Translations under genes and position numbers: made by a program | In this document: piece by piece, positions 8,350-52,161 of the stretch | Layout: every line of letters begins with the position of its first letter | Position numbering within the stretch: the first letter of the stretch is position 1 | Notes under the pieces: generated by a model | Seen by the model: only the letters and a program-made list of their open reading frames with translations | Told to the model about the DNA's origin: nothing | Databases searched by the model: none | NCBI RefSeq assembly: GCF_010731715.1 | Contig: NZ_AP022587.1 | Coordinates: 3,472,001 to 3,536,000, forward strand | Direction of reading: 5' to 3' | Length of the DNA stretch: 64,000 nucleotides | Source of the DNA: Mycobacterium stomatepiae | GTDB lineage: Bacteria; Actinomycetota; Actinomycetes; Mycobacteriales; Mycobacteriaceae

Positions 8350-8904
<555 letters not shown>

Positions 8905-9115
8905 GTGTGCGCGAAATCTCCCCCACGCCAGGGCGATTCATCACACCGCGATTAGTTACGCTGTGAGTTGTGGTGGTCCCCGCGGCTGCTATTGTGGTGC
9001 AAGCCACACTGATTGACCGCCCTCACACCGACGGGCTCAGCAAGGTGAGCGGAAATTCACGCCCGGGTCATTGCGGGCATCGCTCGGGCAACAATGGATT
9101 CTTAGCGTTATCGGT

Positions 9116-10841: not shown

Positions 10842-12238
10842 ATGGTCGGCAGCCACCGCATCACGGACTGGAATCCCGACGACATCGCTGCCTGGGAGGC
10901 AGGCAACGACAAGGTCGCTCGCCGCAACCTGCTGTGCACGATGGCCGGCGACCATGTCGCCTTCTCTATCTGGACGCTGTGGTCGGTGATGGTGCTGTTC
11001 ATGCCGATGTCGGTCTATGGCTTTTCTGCCAGCGACAAGTTGCTCCTTGGCGCCGTTGCCACGCTGGTCGGCGGCTGCGCCCGCATCCCCTACACCCTGG
11101 GCATCGCCAAGTTCGGCGGCCGCAACTGGACCGTGTTCTCGGCGTTCGTGCTGCTGATCCCGACCGCAGGACCATCGTCCTGCTGGCCAATCCCGGCCTG
11201 CCGTTGTGGCCGCATGTGATCTGCGCCGCACTGACCGGGCTGGGCGGCGGCAACTACGCCGCGTCGCTGGCCAACGTCAACGCGTTCTACCCGCAACGAC
11301 TCAAGGGCACGGCGCTGGCGATCAACGCGGGCGTCGGCAATCTTGGTGTCGCGGTGATCCAATTGGCCGGCCTGCTGGCGCTGGCCACCGCCGGCCACCA
11401 GGCGCCGTACTGGGTGTGCGCGGTCTACCTGGTGTTGCTCACCGCGGTCGGCATCGCGGCGGCGCTGTTCATGGACAACCTCGAGCACGGCGTCGAGCTG
11501 AACCACATGCGCTCGACCGTGTTCGACCGCGACACCTGGGTGATCTCGCTGCTCTACATCTGCACCTTTGGCTCCTGGATCGGTTTTTCCTTCGCGTTCG
11601 GGCAGGTCCTGCAGGTGAACTTCGGGGCCCACGGCGAAAGCGCCGCTCATGCGTCGCTGCATGCGGCTCAAATCGCGTTTGTCGGGCCGCTATTGGGCTC
11701 GCTGGCCCGCATCTACGGTGGTCGGCTGGCGGACCGCCGCGGCGGTAGCCGCGTCACCCTGGGCGTCCTGGCGGGCATGATCGTCGGCGCCGGGCTGCTC
11801 GTGGGCATCAGCACGGCCGGGGACCGCAGCGGCACCACGTCGTCGGCCGCAATGGTCGGCTACGTCATCGGGTTCATTGTTCTGTTCGTGCTGTCGGGAA
11901 TGGGCAACGGGTCGGTGTTCAAACTGATCCCGTCGGTGTTCGAGGCGCGCAGTCGGTCGCTGGATGTCGGCGAGGCGGAGCGCCGGCGGTGGTCGCGCGC
12001 CAAGTCGGGATCGCTGATCGGTATCTGCTCGGCGGTCGGCGCGCTCGGCGGCGTCGGAATCAACTTGGCGCTGCGCGAGTCCTACCTGCACGGCGGCACC
12101 GAGACGTCGGCGTATTGGCTGTTTCTGGTCTCCTATGTTGTCGCGGCGATCGTGACGTGGAGGATGTATGTGCGACGCCCGGAGTCGACGTTGCCCGCAC
12201 CGAATTCGGTGCTCACACCGGAGCCAGCTCCGGTGTGA
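10842..12238 (+). pseudogene. Second narK3-like transporter gene, frameshifted
   Basis: A tandem paralogue of narK3, interrupted by a one-base deletion near 11170. The first frame runs from ATG 10842 through the conserved GGRNWTVFSAFVLLIPTAG and then goes out of frame, ending at 11219. The frame then continues as ANPGLPLWPH...LTGLGGGNYAASLANVNAFYP to the normal C-terminus at 12238. Restoring one G in the GCAGGACC context would rejoin the protein into about 466 aa. All remaining NarK motifs are intact (GMGNGSVFKLIPSVFEARS), so the lesion is either recent or a sequencing error in a short G run. It would have the same nitrate/nitrite role as the first copy. M. tuberculosis has a single gene at this place. 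Confidence 0.82.
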
Positions 12239-43197: not shown

Positions 43198-43242
43198 GTC
43201 TGTCAGGTTAGAACGATTGAACTTTCCGCCGTGGCTGATGCG

Positions 43243-43283
43243 CTTGACGTATCAAGTCGTGCGTGTTCTGTCCAAGCGCTTGG
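43243..43283. promoter_or_regulatory. Two palindromes upstream of the second R2lox gene
   Basis: CTTGACGTATCAAG (43243-43256, arms CTTGA/TCAAG) and CCAAGCGCTTGG (43272-43283, perfect 12-bp palindrome). Both lie in the divergent region between the hotdog gene and R2lox. They could be operators; no matching regulator lies directly beside them. Confidence 0.4.
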
Positions 43284-43343
43284 CCATCGTCCCGGCCCGG
43301 CGTCACCATCGAATCACAGCACACGGCTGAGGGGGTCTGTCAG

Positions 43344-44294
43344 ATGACACGTAGACATTCGGGCTCGCTGCTGGCGGGCGGATTCAACTGGGATAGCTTG
43401 CCGTTACGGCTATTCGCCGGGGGCAACGCCAAGTTCTGGGATCCCGCCGACATCGACTTGTCCCGTGACCGCGCTGACTGGGAACAGCTGACCGATGAGG
43501 AACGGCGCCTCGCCTTGCAACTGCGCGTCCAATTCGTTGCCGGGGAGGAGGCGGTGACCGAGGACATTCAGCCCTTCATCGCGGCCATGCGGGCCGAAGG
43601 CCGGCTGGGTGACGAGATGTATTTGACGCAGTTCGCCTTCGAGGAGGCCAAACACACCCAGGTGTTCCGCATGTGGCTCGATGCCGTCGGAGAGACCGAC
43701 GATCTGCAGGCCTACCTCGAGCCGCTGTCCGCGTACCGGCGCATCTTTTACGAGGAGCTGCCAAAATGCCTCAACGCGTTGACAATCGACCCGTCACCGG
43801 TCGCGCAGGTAAGGGCATCCGTGACCTATAACCACGTCGTCGAGGGCATGATGGCGCTAACCGGCTACCACTCGTGGCACAAAATCTGCGCGGGACGCAA
43901 CATTCTTCCCGGCATGCGGGAACTGGTTCGGCGCATCGGCGACGACGAGCGACGGCACATGGCCTGGGGCACCTTCACCTGCCGGCGCCACGTCGCCGCC
44001 GACGACGCCAACTGGGCCGTGTTCGAGGCGCGGATGAACGAGCTCATCCCGCTGGTCATGCAAGCGACCGAACAGGCGTATGCCACGTTTAGCGATCCCG
44101 TCCCGTTCGGCTTGGACCTAGACGAGTCGCGCCAGTACGCCTCCGACAGGGGTATGCGACGGTTCGGCACCATCGCCAGTGCCCGCGGCCGACCGCTCGG
44201 CGAGATCGACGTCGACTACTCGCCGCTGCAGCTAGAGAACGCCTTCGCCGACGAGGACGAAAAGGCCCTGACGGCAACGGCATCGGTGAGATGA
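43344..44294 (+). CDS. R2-like ligand-binding oxidase (R2lox), second copy
   Basis: A 316-aa ferritin-like di-metal protein, paralogue of the canonical R2lox at 50508-51443. In R2lox a Mn/Fe centre activates oxygen, binds a long-chain fatty acid and forms a Val-Tyr ether cross-link. All ligands are present at the M. tuberculosis Rv0233 positions: E68, E101, H104, E167, E202 and H205, as well as cross-link partners V71 and Y162. Residue 176 is His instead of the Tyr in the canonical copy. It starts at ATG 43344, and its stop overlaps the next gene by four bases (ATGA). It lies in the accessory block. The name nrdB is used for such genes but they are not ribonucleotide reductases. Confidence 0.88.
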
Positions 44295-45187
44295 GAGTCA
44301 TCGGGATTGCGGCGGCGGCCGCCATTGCGTTGGCACCGTTCTCGGTGTTGGCAACGGCAGCCGGCGTGGCGCAGGCGGCGCCGGTTGCGCAATATCGCAT
44401 ACCGACCGGCCCCACACTGCCGACGCCCACCGACTACCGTGACGCAGGCGCAGACCCTACCGGTCATTCCGCCAACTCCTCGGCGCCCGAATACAATTCC
44501 GACGGGCACGCTGAAGAGGATACGAGTCCGTCCTGGTGGCCCTCGGCGCTGCACTACGGGGTATTGATGACAGCGGTGGGCCTTGCCGCCTGGGCTATCG
44601 GATTGTCGTCACATCGCGCCGCTGGCACACCTCGGATCCGGCCCCGACCGGAGCGCCGCCGGGCGCCCAGTGCTGCATCGACCGTCAGACCCGCGCCCGC
44701 GTTTCCGACGATTGATCCGCCGGACTCGGAGACAAAGAGAAGGGTGCTGGTCGAGGCGGCCCATCGATGCGCGATCCCCACCTGCCGGCGTCCAACGACC
44801 GAGATAGCGCACATCGTGTCTGAGTCGCAGCGCCGTGGCGAGTCGTTCGAAAACCTCATCACGTTATGCCCGGACTGCCAAGAGAAAGAAATCGATCCGC
44901 GGTCGATCCGCATGTACAAGCGCAATCTCGGGATCTTGAACAGTCGCTACTCTGATTTCGAACGCCGGTTGTTCGATCAGATCGCGGAGACCGGCCGGAC
45001 ATCCTTCGTCGTCCAGGCGGGCTTGGAGATCCCTCTGCTGCACGCGGTCAATGATGGGATTTTGAAACAAGTCGAACTATCGCCCGTACCGGCCCAACGC
45101 GGTGAACCGATCCAGTATCGATATGAAGTCGTCGATGCTGGGCTGGACTTCGTCGGCCGATACATGCGGGGCGAAGACATTTCATGA
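44291..45187 (+). CDS. Membrane-anchored HNH-domain protein
   Basis: A 298-aa protein with an unusual layout. Residues 1-29 form a Sec signal (Ala-rich core, cleavage after AQA). Residues 30-85 are a Pro/Ser-rich outer segment, 86-106 one membrane span ([19 protein letters not shown]), and 109-125 an Arg-rich stretch that predicts a cytoplasmic C-terminus. Residues 149-202 form an HNH nuclease-like zinc domain: C160, C165, H174 (IAHI), N188 (ENLITLC), C193 and C196. The last position of the usual CxxCH is Gln197, so activity is uncertain. The tail 203-298 ends in a winged-helix-like LKQVELSP...[17 protein letters not shown] overlap with R2lox implies coupled translation. Function unknown. Confidence 0.8.
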
Positions 45188-45215: not shown

Positions 45216-46370
45216 TTACTTCTGGTAGGACAGCGCTCCCGTCCCGGCGAGCTTGCCGCCCTCGACGATCAAGTACTCCGGGCGGATCGGCGTGCCGGCG
45301 AACCAGTTTTCCAGGATCTCCCGGGTGCCCGCGGCGTACCGGGCCTGCGCGGACAGCGTGGTACCCGAAACATGGGGCGTCATCGCGTTATTCGGCATGG
45401 TCCGCCACGGGTGATCGGCCGGTGGCGGCTGCGGGAACCACACGTCGCCGGCGTAACCAGCGAGCTGGCCGCTGCGCAATGCGGCCGCGATCGCCTCGGG
45501 TACGGTTTCCTCGCCGCGGGCGGTGTTGACGATGTAGGAGCCGCGCCGCATCGTTCCCAGCAGCCGCTCGTTGAACATCCGGCGGGTCGCCTCGTACAGC
45601 GGTGAGTGGATCGACACGATGTCGACCGAGCGAACCAGCGACTCGACGTCCGGGTGGAATGTGACGTTGAGTTCCTTCTCGACCTCCGGCGACAGCCGTC
45701 GTGTGTCGGTGTAGTGCAGATTGACGTCGAACGGCGCCAGCCGGCGCAGCACCGCACGCCCGATCCGCCCGGCGGCGATCAGCCCGACGTCCATGCCCTC
45801 CAGGTCGTAGGCACGCTCCACGCAATCGGCGATGTTCCATCCGCCCTCGGTGGCCCACCGGTGTGACGGGACGAAATTGCGCACCAGCGTGAGGATCTGC
45901 ATCACCGTGTGCTCGGCGACGCTGATGCTGTTGCTGTAGGTCACCTCGGCGACGGTGATTCCGTGCTGCTGGGCGACGTCGAGGTCGACGTGGTCCGAGC
46001 CGATGCCCGCGGTCAGCGCGAGCTTGAGCCGGGGCGCCTTCTCGATCCGCTCCTTGGTCAAGTAGGCCGGCCAAAATGGTTGGGAAATCACGATATCGGC
46101 GTCGGGCAGCTCGCGTTCGAACTCCGAATCCGGCCCGTCCTTGTCCGACGTCACCACGAGTTCGTGGCCCGCGTCTTCGAAGAACTTGCGCAGCCCGAGC
46201 TCGCCGGAGACGCAACCGAGGAGCTCGCCGGGAGTGAAGTCGATGCTCGACGGGGTCGGCACGGTGCTGCCGTCGGGATAGCCCTGGATCGTCGGGATGC
46301 TGTCGCGGGCGTACTTCGACGGGTATCCGTCGACCGGGTCCGGGTAGAGCACCATCACGCACTTCGCCAT
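45216..46370 (-). CDS. fdh: NAD-dependent formate dehydrogenase
   Basis: A 384-aa metal-free formate dehydrogenase that oxidises formate to CO2 with NAD+, related to the Pseudomonas sp. 101 and Mycobacterium vaccae enzymes. Catalytic residues are in place: N147, R285 (VNTARG), D309, Q314 and H333 (TPHVSGTTLSAQ). The Rossmann motif is GLIAAGRIG (about 196-204), and D222 after it favours NAD+ over NADP+. ATG 46370, with GAGGAGAAG upstream, aligns with the family start (MAKCVMVLYPDPVDG); the frame is open to 46499 but would overlap the LysR gene. It follows the LysR regulator and the TPP enzyme in the same direction. It would supply NADH from formate. Confidence 0.93.
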   Translation of the reverse strand: MAKCVMVLYPDPVDGYPSKYARDSIPTIQGYPDGSTVPTPSSIDFTPGELLGCVSGELGLRKFFEDAGHELVVTSDKDGPDSEFERELPDADIVISQPFWPAYLTKERIEKAPRLKLALTAGIGSDHVDLDVAQQHGITVAEVTYSNSISVAEHTVMQILTLVRNFVPSHRWATEGGWNIADCVERAYDLEGMDVGLIAAGRIGRAVLRRLAPFDVNLHYTDTRRLSPEVEKELNVTFHPDVESLVRSVDIVSIHSPLYEATRRMFNERLLGTMRRGSYIVNTARGEETVPEAIAAALRSGQLAGYAGDVWFPQPPPADHPWRTMPNNAMTPHVSGTTLSAQARYAAGTREILENWFAGTPIRPEYLIVEGGKLAGTGALSYQK

Positions 46371-46467
46371 CGGCTTCTCCTCTTGCTGGGTGACTGCGTT
46401 CCAGCTTTCGCCGCCGGCATCGGCGGTGTCCAAGACGGAGTTCCGACCGGCCGATAGGCCGCACCGA

Positions 46468-47385
46468 TCAGGCCTGGTGAGGTCGGCCGAACATGTCACC
46501 GATGCTGGCGTCCCGCGCGGTCTGGACCAATGCGCGCGTCACCACCGAACCGGGTTCTTCCGCATTGGTGACCAGCACCATCGGGGCGGTGATCGACGGC
46601 TCGTGCAGCCTCAGCACCGAAGCCCCGGCCGGCACACCCAGGGCGCGAATCCAGGTCTGCGGCACGATGCTCGCCCAACGGCCGGTGCCGACGTGGGCGA
46701 AGAGTGTGGCGACAGAATCGGTTTCGAGTTGTGGGGTCACCGCAAGGCCCTGCCCGGCCAGTGCGTCGTCGATGACACGGCGACCGCGCATCCCGACGGT
46801 GAGCAGGCACAGCGGAAAGGCCAGCGCGTCGGACCAACTGATGGAGTCGGACTTGCCCGCGAGCAGGTCGCCGCCCACGATCAGCACCTGGTGCTCCTGG
46901 TACAGCGGGGTGACCTGCAGCGCATCCGTATCGTGACGATCCGGATACAGAATCCCCGCATCCAACTCGAACCGGCGGATTCGTTCGATGATCCCCGCCG
47001 AGCGAAGATTGGTCTCCGCCCGTACCCGCACCAACGGGTGCGCGGCACAAAACGAATCCGTCAGCAGCGCAACAGTAGTGGCCGCGTTGGGCACCACTCC
47101 CAACCGCAGCTCGCCGACCAGGCCGGTCTGCAATGCCGTGACCTCCAGCGTGAGTGCGTCGCGATCGGCCAGGATGCGCCGGGCCCAATGGACGAGCCTT
47201 TCCCCTTCCGGGGTGAGCCCCTCGAACTTCTGACCACGCCGGACCAGCGGGACCTTCAGCTCGTGTTCGAGCTTGCGGATGGCCTCCGACAACGCCGGCT
47301 GAGATACATGACAGGCATCCGCGGCGCGAGCGAAATGACGCTCCCGGGCGAGCGCTACGAAGTACTCAAGCTGGCGAAACAGCAT
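46468..47385 (-). CDS. LysR-family transcriptional regulator
   Basis: A 305-aa LysR regulator. The N-terminal winged helix (about 1-60) reads LFRQLEYFVALARERHFARAADACHVSQPALSEAIRKLE (in pieces). The C-terminal periplasmic-binding-like effector domain (about 90-295) includes GELRLGVVPNAATTVALL and EPSITAPMVLVTNAEEPGS. It lies between the TPP enzyme, five bases upstream, and the formate dehydrogenase, 97 bases downstream, all on the minus strand. It may therefore regulate the formate dehydrogenase or the whole set; the effector is unknown. Confidence 0.9.
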   Translation of the reverse strand: MLFRQLEYFVALARERHFARAADACHVSQPALSEAIRKLEHELKVPLVRRGQKFEGLTPEGERLVHWARRILADRDALTLEVTALQTGLVGELRLGVVPNAATTVALLTDSFCAAHPLVRVRAETNLRSAGIIERIRRFELDAGILYPDRHDTDALQVTPLYQEHQVLIVGGDLLAGKSDSISWSDALAFPLCLLTVGMRGRRVIDDALAGQGLAVTPQLETDSVATLFAHVGTGRWASIVPQTWIRALGVPAGASVLRLHEPSITAPMVLVTNAEEPGSVVTRALVQTARDASIGDMFGRPHQA

Positions 47386-47390
47386 GAACG

Positions 47391-49037
47391 CTAAAGCGTT
47401 TCGTCCAACTCGCCGAGCCGGTCGGTCAGTCGTAGGTTCTCCGAGTAATCCACCGGGCAGCAGATCAGCGACACCCCGTCGTCGGCGAGCGCGGTCTGCA
47501 GCGTCGGCAACAGCTCGTCGGCGGTGTTAATCCGATACCCTTTGGCACCAAAGCTTTCGGCGTACTTGACGATGTCGGGGTTGCCGAACTTCACGTAGTA
47601 GTGGGCGCCGAGCTCGAGGTCCATCTTCCATTCGATCAGCCCGTAACCGCCGTCCTCCCAGATCAGCACCACCAGCGGTATCTTCTCCCGCGCGGCGGTC
47701 TCGATTTCCTGCGAATTCATCAGGAAGGCGCCATCGCCCACCACGGCGAGCACCTTCGACTCGGGTCGTGCTAGCTTCACGCCGAGCGCCCCCGGCAGCG
47801 CAAAAGCCATGGTGGACAATCCATTCGAGACCAAACAGGTGTTGCGCTCGTAGGTGGGGTAGAGCCGCGCCATCCACATCTTGGTCGCTCCGGTGTCGAC
47901 CAGCACGACGTCGCTACGGCCCAGCGCGGCCCGGATGTCGGCGACCACCCGTTGCGGCGCCAACGGGTAGCGCGAATCCTGTTGTCCCCGAGCGAATTCG
48001 TCGGCAAGCAGACCGGACCCCGGCACGTCGGTCTCGTCGGCGCAGTGGTGGCCGGCCAGCGCCTCGGTCAGCGCTCTGAGCGAGGCACTGATGTCGCCGA
48101 TGATCCCGACGTCGACCGAGTAGTGCATGTCGACCTCGGCCGGGAAGCGGTGAATGTGGATGATCTTCTTGTCGGCCTGCGGGTTGATCCGAATGGGGTC
48201 AAATTCCTGCAGTTCATAGCCGACCGCGACCACGACGTCGGCGTTGTCGAACCCGAAGTTGACGTAGTCGTGCCGCATGAACCCGATAGTTCCGATGCTG
48301 TTGGGGTGATCGTCGGGCATGACGCCCTTGCCGTGGAAGGTATTGGCGACCTGGAAGCCGAACTCCTCGGAGAACCGGACCAGGGCCGCGGTGGCGTCGG
48401 CGCGCGCAGCGCCGTGCCCGGCCAGCACGACCGGGCGCTTGGCGTTGCGCAGGATGTCGACCGCGCGTTCGATCTGCCCGGGAGCCGGCGCCTCGGCGCG
48501 GACCACGTTGCGCGGTAGCGGGGTCAGGTCGTAATCGGCCTCGTCGGCGTCGATTTGCTCGGGCACGGCGAGGTACACCGCCGCCGGACGCTCGGCCTCG
48601 GCGACCTTGAACGCCTTGCGGAACATCTCCGGGATCGCGCGCGCGGTGGGCACGCCGTCGGCCCAGCGGGTGATCGGGGCGAACATCGAGACCAGGTCGA
48701 CGTACTGATGCGACTCCTTGTACTGGCGGTCCTCGCCGACCTGCGCGGAGATCGCGACCATCGGCGTGCTGTTGGTCGTCGCGTCGGCGACCCCGAGCTG
48801 CATGTTGATCGCACCCGGACCCAACGTCGCCGAGACCACTGCAGCACGGCCGGTCACGCGGCCGTACATCTCGGCCATGAACGCCGCGGCCTGCTCGTGC
48901 CGGGTGAGCACGTAGCGGATCTGCGAAGACGCCAGGGCCTGCACGAATCGGATGTTCTCCTCACCCGGCAGCCCGAACACCACCGAAACGCCCTCGTTTT
49001 CCAGGCACTGAACCATCAGCCGAGCGGCTGTACTCAT
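47391..49037 (-). CDS. Acetolactate synthase-like thiamine-pyrophosphate enzyme
   Basis: A 548-aa TPP enzyme most like catabolic acetolactate synthases (AlsS). The activating Glu is in TRHEQAAAFMAEMYG (about 49). The TPP motif is VVGDGAFLMNSQEIETAARE followed by LVVLIWEDGGYG, where the usual NN end of the motif is ED. The C-terminus KYAESFGAKGYRI...CPVDYSENLRL is AlsS-like. Two pyruvate to acetolactate plus CO2 is the likely reaction, but related enzymes act on oxalyl-CoA, glyoxylate or sulfopyruvate, so the substrate is open. It is the first gene of a three-gene minus-strand set with LysR and formate dehydrogenase and is divergent from gabD1. Confidence 0.82.
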   Translation of the reverse strand: MSTAARLMVQCLENEGVSVVFGLPGEENIRFVQALASSQIRYVLTRHEQAAAFMAEMYGRVTGRAAVVSATLGPGAINMQLGVADATTNSTPMVAISAQVGEDRQYKESHQYVDLVSMFAPITRWADGVPTARAIPEMFRKAFKVAEAERPAAVYLAVPEQIDADEADYDLTPLPRNVVRAEAPAPGQIERAVDILRNAKRPVVLAGHGAARADATAALVRFSEEFGFQVANTFHGKGVMPDDHPNSIGTIGFMRHDYVNFGFDNADVVVAVGYELQEFDPIRINPQADKKIIHIHRFPAEVDMHYSVDVGIIGDISASLRALTEALAGHHCADETDVPGSGLLADEFARGQQDSRYPLAPQRVVADIRAALGRSDVVLVDTGATKMWMARLYPTYERNTCLVSNGLSTMAFALPGALGVKLARPESKVLAVVGDGAFLMNSQEIETAAREKIPLVVLIWEDGGYGLIEWKMDLELGAHYYVKFGNPDIVKYAESFGAKGYRINTADELLPTLQTALADDGVSLICCPVDYSENLRLTDRLGELDETL

Positions 49038-50507: not shown

Positions 50508-51443
50508 CTAAACGGTCGCCAGCGCCCGCTCGTCCTCCTCGGCGAAGGTGTCCTCGAGCTGCAGCGGCGAATAGTCCAGGTCGATCTCGCCGAGCGGGCG
50601 ACCGCGGGCGCTGGAGATGGTGCCGAACCGGCGCATGCCCTTGTCGGAGGCGTACTGCATGGACACGTCCGTCGACAGCCCGAAAGGCATCGGGTCGTAC
50701 AGGGCGAAGCCCTCCTCGATCAGGCGCAGGCCGAGCGGCATCAGCTCGTTCATCCGCGTTTCGAAGACACCCCAGTTGGCGTCGTCGGCGGCGACGTGGC
50801 GCCGGCAGGTGAAGGTGCCCCACGCCATGTGGCGTCGCTCGTCGTCGCCGATGCGCCGGACCAGCTCCTGCATGCCGGGCAGGATGCCGCGGTCGACGCA
50901 GATCTTGTGCCAGATGTAGTAGCCGGTCAGCGCCAGCATGCCTTCGACCATGTGGTTGTAGGTCACCGACGCCCGGACCTGCGCGGCCGGCGACGGATCG
51001 ACTGACAGCGCACTCAGACACTCCGGCAGTTCGTCGTAGAAAATCGTGCGGTAGGTCGGGACGTCGTCGAGGAGGTCGTTCAGGTCCTCGGTGACGCCGA
51101 CGGCGTCGAGCCACATGCGAAACACCTGGACGTGCTTGGCCTCCTCGAAGGCGAACTGCGTCAGGTACATCTCGTCGCCGATTCGGCCCTCGGCCCGCAT
51201 CGCGGCCATGAACGGCTGGATGTCCTGGGTCACCGATTCCTCGCCGGCGATGAACTCGGCGCACAGCAGGGTGGCGTAGCTGCGTTCGTCGTCGGTCAGG
51301 CGTTCCCAGTCCTGCCGGTCACGGGAAAAGTCGATGTCGGCCGGATTCCAGAATTTTGCATTGCCTCCCGCAAACAGCTTGAGCGGCAAGCTATCCCAGT
51401 TGAGACCGCCTTGGGTCATTGAGGCAATTCGGGTGCGGTTCAT
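50508..51443 (-). CDS. R2-like ligand-binding oxidase (R2lox), canonical copy
   Basis: A 311-aa Mn/Fe di-metal oxidase homologous to Rv0233 (314 aa), in the syntenic position next to gabD1 and the TetR gene. Metal ligands E68, E101, H104, E167, E202 and H205 and the cross-link residues V71 and Y162 are conserved ([33 protein letters not shown]). It binds a fatty-acid-like ligand and probably oxidises an unknown substrate. The start ATG 51443 overlaps the stop of the upstream TetR gene by four bases (ATGA), so they form an operon. A paralogue lies at 43344-44294. Confidence 0.92.
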
Positions 51444-52129
51444 GTGACCTCCTCAGATCGCATTGGGGCTGGGTTATCGGAGGTATTCGGTGTCGCGAAC
51501 GCGGCGATCAGCACCGCGACCAGCCTGCGCACGGCTAGCGCCGGCTGTTCGGGGCTGGGCTCGTCGAGGCCGAGAATGGGGTCCAGGCCGCGCATGTAGG
51601 GGGCCAGCGCCAGGTGCGGAAAGATCAGCAATAGCAGCGACAGCAGCGCGTCGGTGTCGGCGTCGGTGCGCAGATCGCCGCGGGTTTGGGCGCCGTGCAC
51701 CAGCGGCCGCAGCACCTCCAGGTAGTGGCGGTGGATGACGCTGCGCACGCTGATGCGGGCGTCGGTATCGACCTCCAGGGTCGCCGCGGCGTGCAGCGAT
51801 CTTTCCCGCGGGTGCTCGGCGAAGTAGGCGACCCAGCCGTCGAGCAGCTCGGTGAGAAATTCGAAGAACGGCCGGTTCGGGTCGAGCTCGCGGATCAGAC
51901 CTTCCATGTAGCCGCGCATTCGCTGACTGCCGATGTCGGCGATGAACGCGAACAGGTCGCGCTTGTCCGCGAAGTACTGGAACAGGCTGCCCTTGGCGAC
52001 CCCCGCGCGGCGTGCGATGACGTTCAAGCTGCCACCGGAAAACCCGTGCGCCCCGAACTCGGCCTCGGCGGCCTCGATGATGGCCGTGCGTCGAGCGGGG
52101 TCGACCCGCGCCCAGGTAACCGTCGGCAT
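51440..52129 (-). CDS. TetR-family regulator (Rv0232 type) upstream of R2lox
   Basis: A 229-aa TetR protein, the same length as Rv0232 by recall. The DNA-binding part reads [20 protein letters not shown], then [26 protein letters not shown] (about 10-60). The ligand domain is helical and carries [23 protein letters not shown]. Translationally coupled to R2lox by an ATGA overlap, it probably controls this two-gene operon. The palindrome ATGACC-N3-GGTCAT 18 bases upstream of its start is the likely operator for autoregulation. Confidence 0.88.
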
Positions 52130-52146: not shown

Positions 52147-52161
52147 ATGACCAGTGGTCAT
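52147..52161. promoter_or_regulatory. Palindrome ATGACCAGTGGTCAT upstream of the Rv0232-type TetR gene
   Basis: A perfect 15-base palindrome (arms of six, centre AGT) lies 18 bases upstream of the TetR start at 52129. Size and place are typical of TetR operators. Confidence 0.6.

Follow-up and report, generated by a model that had tools for sequence, protein, structure and literature searches.

Why should the gene for an R2-like ligand-binding oxidase (R2lox) run directly into a gene for a membrane-tethered protein with an HNH domain? The question is raised by a 64,000-nucleotide stretch of Mycobacterium stomatepiae DNA (the window, to which all coordinates refer unless another locus is named), which is part of a complete 6.21-Mb chromosome assigned to Mycobacterium by its kin. 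The oxidase, here called R2loxA, is a protein of 316 residues and the second R2lox copy of the window (43344..44294, plus strand, from the ATG at 43344 to a stop that ends at 44294). Its partner, HNHtm, is a membrane-tethered HNH and winged-helix-like protein of 298 residues (44291..45187, plus strand, ATG at 44291), recognized from Pfam and a structure model. In the sequence ATGA (44291..44294, plus strand) the start of HNHtm lies over the stop of R2loxA, so that the two genes share four bases. Given this start-to-stop overlap, translation of both from a single message is very probable, and their co-production is strongly implied. Our analysis suggests, with moderate confidence, that HNHtm is a nuclease-derived, membrane-tethered DNA-binding protein that is made together with R2loxA in one species group and that has a job of its own, independent of R2loxA, in some carriers.

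HNHtm combines several segments, all read on the plus strand. A signal peptide (residues 1-29, 44291..44377), recognized by hydropathy and by its likeness to the N-termini of a family of mycobacterial membrane proteins, has a cleavage site placed by eye between AQA and AP. It is followed by an outer segment (residues 30-82, 44378..44536), one membrane span (residues 83-107, 44537..44611), an Arg/Pro-rich cytoplasmic linker (residues 108-145, 44612..44725), a zinc-ribbon HNH domain (residues 146-198, 44726..44884) and a C-terminal part made of a helix and a winged-helix-like region (residues 203-293, 44897..45169). Pfam HNH (PF01844) matches residues 159-199 with 26.6 bits (cut-off 21.4). The structure model, built on 56 sequences, has a helix at residues 83-107, the HNH domain at 146-198 and further helices and strands to residue 293, and in a fold comparison residues 206-296 align with winged helices. 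The outer segment is mostly of low confidence in the model and is therefore probably disordered; its length varies, and in one carrier genome, G216, most of it is absent. The topology is based on hydropathy, which peaks at residues 3-21 and 87-105, and on charge. The 30 residues after the span, in the linker, have eight K/R and one D/E, while the stretch before it (from residue 31) has two K/R and eight D/E, and the trend across the span is the same in the other four HNHtm orthologues. This pattern strongly suggests that the HNH part is on the cytoplasmic side of the membrane.

R2loxA itself is a complete member of its family. It scores 599.7 bits against the NCBIfam model for R2-like ligand-binding oxidases (NF006201, cut-off 346), and its best solved relative is 3ee4 from M. 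tuberculosis, with which it aligns over residues 1-312. All six metal ligands are kept (E68, E101, H104, E167, E202 and H205, the first carboxylate being Glu), as is the ether cross-link pair, V71 and Y162; these positions were matched by eye in alignments to residues named for GkR2loxI in the passages available from PMC6060897 and PMC10867098. For R2lox relatives a Mn/Fe cofactor, a bound fatty acid and two-electron oxidation are established (available passages of PMC6060897, PMC4118035 and PMC10867098), and by analogy R2loxA is expected to activate oxygen and to bind a long-chain fatty-acid-like ligand. An earlier note on this DNA had described a complete R2lox, the ATGA overlap, the same order of segments in HNHtm and an HNH part on the inner side of the membrane, and all of these descriptions are borne out here. 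In a phylogenetic analysis of 23 R2lox sequences, two of which (both from G075) have an X in place of a stop, the eight R2loxA proteins form one branch (support 99/97), separate from the usual-site copies. R2loxA resembles M. tuberculosis 3ee4 and Geobacillus GkR2loxI in being full length against 3ee4 and in its metal ligands and Val-Tyr cross-link pair, but unlike them it is an extra copy, in a separate clade, and its coupling is to a membrane gene on the downstream side, not to a TetR gene upstream.

The active site of the HNH domain suggests what has become of the nuclease. The zinc-ribbon cysteines C160, C165, C193 and C196 are present in all five proteins that are paired with an R2loxA and are invariant or nearly so in wider alignments, and the first His (H174) and the middle Asn (N188) are kept. 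The third HNH residue, a His or Asn directly after the last zinc cysteine, is absent; glutamine (Q197) stands there in all five paired proteins. Its counterpart in the Geobacter Gme HNH protein, Asn77, comes after a zinc ligand and was considered critical both for activity and for folding (PMC3765158, in the passages available). A glutamine at this site makes DNA cutting by HNHtm unlikely. The loss, which the earlier note did not mention, argues against its idea of a working nuclease, and because of it HNHtm is probably a tethered DNA-binding protein.

In a scan for relatives of HNHtm, with one genome per species, 112 were found and 80 loci kept, one of which (L096) has no reading frame and was dropped, leaving 79. 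Nearly all of the kept relatives are stand-alone proteins, mostly of 160-220 residues, from many phyla, and the nine nearest are 43-50% identical to the cytoplasmic part of HNHtm. In an alignment with one of these (48% identity, 170 columns) the first gap, of five residues, falls directly after the last zinc cysteine, between C196 and Q197 (44876..44881, plus strand), where the relative has H and four more residues. At this site CH is read in 77 of the 79 readable genome loci, the two CQ readings being mycobacterial HNHtm, and CH is also found in the four solved HNH relatives shown. A protein search gave 538 matches at E<=0.001 among 7997 candidates scored; in the best 120, which include the window's own protein, the site reads CQ in 95, CH in 7 and is otherwise or not readable in 18. 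In a domain tree of 123 sequences the mycobacterial proteins form one branch (100/100), and most CQ readers lie in a 97-sequence branch (95/95); eight of the 11 listed CH or RH readers are outside that branch and three (P0037, P0071 and P0101) inside. Judged from these alignments, the HNH and winged-helix part of HNHtm is derived from the widespread stand-alone family, its third residue having been lost by a five-residue deletion. HNHtm shares the zinc cysteines, first His and Asn with stand-alone proteins of about 170 residues from many phyla and some viral contigs, but differs from them in having a membrane part and in lacking the third HNH residue and its four followers. On viral contigs there are 22 relatives, and all seven of those that were read as proteins are stand-alone open reading frames (ORFs) of 171-208 residues.

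The membrane part appears to have a different source. Many weak HNHtm matches in other genomes are to longer ORFs that share its signal peptide and carry a WWPSAL-type span in their C-terminal part, and a full relative of this membrane-protein family is present elsewhere in the window's genome. None of three such ORFs scanned has a Pfam family above cut-off. These proteins, of about 420-520 residues, have a large outer domain and no HNH part, while the outer part of HNHtm is short. The shared signal peptide and span therefore make HNHtm look like both ends of such a membrane protein joined to an HNH part. Among the best 120 of the 538 protein matches, 41 begin like the window's protein, 66 have this signal peptide preceded by another leader and 13 have an internal start; the leader of the 66 presumably resembles a protein-kinase glycine loop. 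Differing N-terminal leaders are seen, for example, in P0025, P0035 and P0066, and one listed relative is a fusion with the beginning of a GMC oxidoreductase.

The distribution of the pair was surveyed in 396 Mycobacterium genomes, one per species, with six candidates scored per genome, so that weak relatives may be missed. R2loxA is found in eight of them, at 84-100% identity, and an R2lox at E<=1e-60 in 275. An HNHtm match at E<=0.001 was obtained in 40, mostly to the signal peptide or span only and in some to the HNH part only. A long HNHtm is present in six (the window's genome G000, G363, G131, G109, G216 and G256), and in five of these it lies directly behind R2loxA, with an ATGA overlap in G000, G131 and G109, a gap of one base in G363 and a gap of four bases in G216. 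In G256 it is near a contig end, with no R2lox at the locus and with upstream ORFs that we take to be integrase-like and transposase-like. Conversely, three of the eight R2loxA genes (in G163, G075 and G249) are without HNHtm and have the formate dehydrogenase-like gene directly behind them. The pair is therefore conserved but narrow, and each gene is also found without the other. The earlier note had named rare co-occurrence as something that would refute it, and the result is divided: the coupling recurs wherever HNHtm is long, with one exception, but HNHtm is rare and R2loxA does not always have it. The G363 carrier is in or near the M. simiae complex, since its protein, from an internal start on, matches a named M. 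florentinum protein. A second Mycobacterium draw centred on G363, seemingly the same sample and again with six candidates scored per genome, gave no new carrier, and in 100 mixed relatives no HNHtm was found besides the window's own.

Selection on the two genes was compared by the ratio of nonsynonymous to synonymous substitution rates (dN/dS) over ten genome pairs. The ratio is 0.11-0.14 for R2loxA and 0.29-0.47 for the whole of HNHtm. Within HNHtm it is 0.16-0.38 for the cytoplasmic part, which shows that this part is under selection, 0.25-0.78 for the signal and outer part and 0.49-1.24 for the linker; the 25-codon span (0.42-2.39) is too noisy for use. The open frame in five genomes, the low ratio of the cytoplasmic part and the 538 protein matches together indicate that HNHtm is more than a chance ORF. 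The gene trees do not match well. For R2loxA DNA a branch of G000, G363 and G216 is rejected (p 0.0001), while a branch of all five HNHtm carriers is not firmly rejected (p 0.07). In the HNHtm domain tree G000, G363 and G216 fall in a seven-sequence branch (94/94) with G109 and G131 outside. There, G000, G363 and G109 together are not rejected (p 0.22), nor are the same three plus G131 (p 0.07), and one branch of all five paired HNHtm is rejected (p 0.02), although some metagenome sequences may be paired too. The mismatch hints at an exchange of HNHtm between lineages.

The surroundings of the pair are partly shared between carriers. From 36888 on, the window has a 1415-residue protein that we take to be AftD-like, a lipase maturation factor family gene, a 4HBT thioesterase-like gene on the opposite strand, R2loxA and HNHtm; 3' of HNHtm follow genes for a NAD-dependent formate dehydrogenase-like protein, a LysR regulator, an acetolactate synthase-like protein, succinic semialdehyde dehydrogenase, the second oxidase R2loxB and a TetR regulator. 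The other carriers have the pair at the same place, with the lipase maturation factor gene on one side and the acetolactate synthase-like gene on the other. The formate dehydrogenase-like, LysR and acetolactate synthase-like genes occupy 45216-49037, between the two R2lox copies, and in G216 and G109 only the last of them was seen at that place. In G131 (locus L032) a 4HBT thioesterase-like gene flanks the pair on both sides (8526-8993 and 11403-12038), as after a local duplication. The intergenic stretch that separates R2loxA from the divergently oriented 4HBT thioesterase-like gene (43198..43343, no strand, bounded by the ORF ends) is, from its position, the likely site of a putative R2loxA-HNHtm promoter. 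The block 5' of R2loxA is partly conserved in seven aligned genomes; a palindrome upstream of R2loxA (43243-43256) is not conserved in the six other genomes aligned.

R2loxB (50508..51443, minus strand), assigned by model match and tree, is the usual mycobacterial R2lox copy and stands outside the pair, 6 kb further on; the earlier note did not mention it. The TetR gene, placed by ORF ends and Pfam (51440..52129, minus strand), lies upstream of R2loxB with a four-base ATGA overlap, and such an overlap is found in 12 of the 14 loci examined. A perfect palindrome upstream of TetR-R2loxB (52147-52161) is kept in the five other genomes shown, and a second exact copy in the same genome adjoins a type III polyketide synthase-like gene. 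Upstream of R2loxA this palindrome was not found, even with up to two mismatches allowed, and we reject a shared operator for the two oxidases. A general link between extra R2lox copies and HNH genes is likewise rejected: in 30 R2lox loci of 18 multi-copy genomes, 1.5-kb flanks included, tblastn found no HNHtm except for one 29-residue match (E 0.39), and the same 18 genomes have nothing beyond signal-peptide or span matches to HNHtm. G164, G393 and G260 (loci L207, L208 and L209) share, at 100% identity, a 3936-base stretch in which an AMP-binding (acyl-CoA ligase-like) gene is followed by an extra R2lox, R2lox matches with the same score occur in four more genomes (G061, G099, G119 and G367), and L203, L204 and L205 look like a second set resembling this stretch. 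Such identity across species-level genomes suggests either recent transfer or contamination. G367 also has a tandem pair of R2lox genes at the usual site (L157, 8716-10731) and two further copies elsewhere in the genome.

How, then, may the pair have arisen, and what may it do? In the reading we prefer, the HNHtm family would have arisen when a stand-alone HNH-plus-winged-helix gene was placed after the signal peptide and membrane span taken from a mycobacterial membrane protein. The signal peptide would insert the protein, with a short disordered stretch outside and, as is strongly suggested, the zinc-ribbon HNH and winged-helix-like part kept in the cytoplasm. Having lost its third HNH residue, HNHtm would most likely be a tethered DNA-binding protein with little or no cutting activity. 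In one species group it would have come to lie directly behind a duplicated R2lox, with a start-to-stop overlap. Its job would most likely be to tether or regulate DNA at the membrane, and would not depend on R2loxA in all carriers. The single span and the charge pattern fit a membrane-tethered DNA-binding regulator, in which DNA binding by the winged helix is only predicted. ToxR and CadC are membrane-tethered one-component regulators, and HNHtm resembles them, by architecture alone, in that a single span links the outer part with a winged helix in the cytoplasm, provided that this helix binds DNA; its order is the opposite, with the outer part N-terminal behind a signal peptide, and it has a zinc-ribbon HNH domain in addition. 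R2loxA and HNHtm may also act on each other. In this less probable reading they would form one working unit, in which R2loxA would oxidise or hold a fatty-acid-like ligand and HNHtm would anchor R2loxA at the membrane or read its state and alter transcription through the winged helix. Close coupling in five genomes with three kinds of junction, purifying selection on both genes and the persistence of the junction in carriers whose R2loxA proteins are 84-93% identical to the window's are all consistent with this, and a single gain of HNHtm is not firmly rejected by R2loxA. The TetR overlap of the ordinary R2lox suggests, moreover, that production of an R2lox together with a DNA-binding protein has come up more than once, which makes a regulatory partner less strange. 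However, the two genes do occur apart in three R2loxA genomes and in G256, their trees match poorly, HNHtm evolves faster overall than R2loxA, and only five of the many genomes with an R2lox have HNHtm behind one. An extended form of the idea, a membrane-to-DNA signalling unit in which R2loxA would use oxygen to oxidise a lipid at the membrane and the tethered, nuclease-impaired HNHtm would read either that ligand or the state of the enzyme, bind chromosomal DNA and switch genes, seems unlikely to us.

The earlier note had also named a role in defence as a possibility. HNHtm would then be an active membrane-bound nuclease directed against incoming DNA, for example of phages. Its fold has kinship with the HNH domains of CBASS Cap5 and McrA, PADLOC gives matches (weak ones, the best with E 5.6e-4), and the first His, the Asn and the four zinc cysteines are kept. 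Yet the third HNH residue is lost, at the place judged critical in Gme HNH; a Pfam scan of eight neighbouring genes reveals no defence gene; and a search of 50,697 phage records gave no match, with a single distant one among 72,556 plasmid records. HNHtm also differs from Cap5 (HNH-SAVED), EcoKMcrA and IscB, with which it is 16-24% identical, in having no SAVED, modified-base or RuvC part and no third residue; Pfam finds no SAVED domain in HNHtm and no CD-NTase family match among the eight neighbours. An IscB RNA-guided endonuclease is rejected as well (26.4 bits against a curated model cut-off of 175). Beyond HNH kinship defence has no positive support, and since the PADLOC HNH matches are weak only, the phage collection has no match and the viral relatives read are stand-alone ORFs, we reject this quite improbable reading. 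Still more improbable is that HNHtm is a passenger gene heading for decay that lies behind R2loxA by chance. It was lost or never gained in three of the eight R2loxA genomes, its outer part is much shorter in G216, and its third-position GC content (0.71) is below that of its two immediate neighbours (0.81 and 0.88), although a value of 0.74 is found for the 4HBT gene. Its frame, however, is open in all five paired genomes, the dN/dS of its cytoplasmic part is well below 1, and it belongs to a large family.

The earlier note knew of no described system that joins an oxidase to a membrane-bound nuclease-like protein, and our searches of the mostly open-access literature agree, as neither an R2lox-HNH pair nor a membrane-tethered HNH winged-helix protein was among the matches listed. 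The physiological role of R2lox was stated to be unknown in 2014 (PMC4118035) and in 2018 (PMC6060897), and alkane oxidation was later claimed for one Geobacillus R2lox protein (PMC10867098), in the passages available from these papers. A co-translated partner provides a concrete handle on one branch of R2lox. In HNHtm a nuclease module would have moved to the membrane and lost a catalytic residue, which suggests a testable path from cutting to binding. Should the pairing prove to be no more than a chance operon, the mycobacterial family of membrane-tethered HNH proteins, itself absent from the papers listed in the literature searches, still stands.
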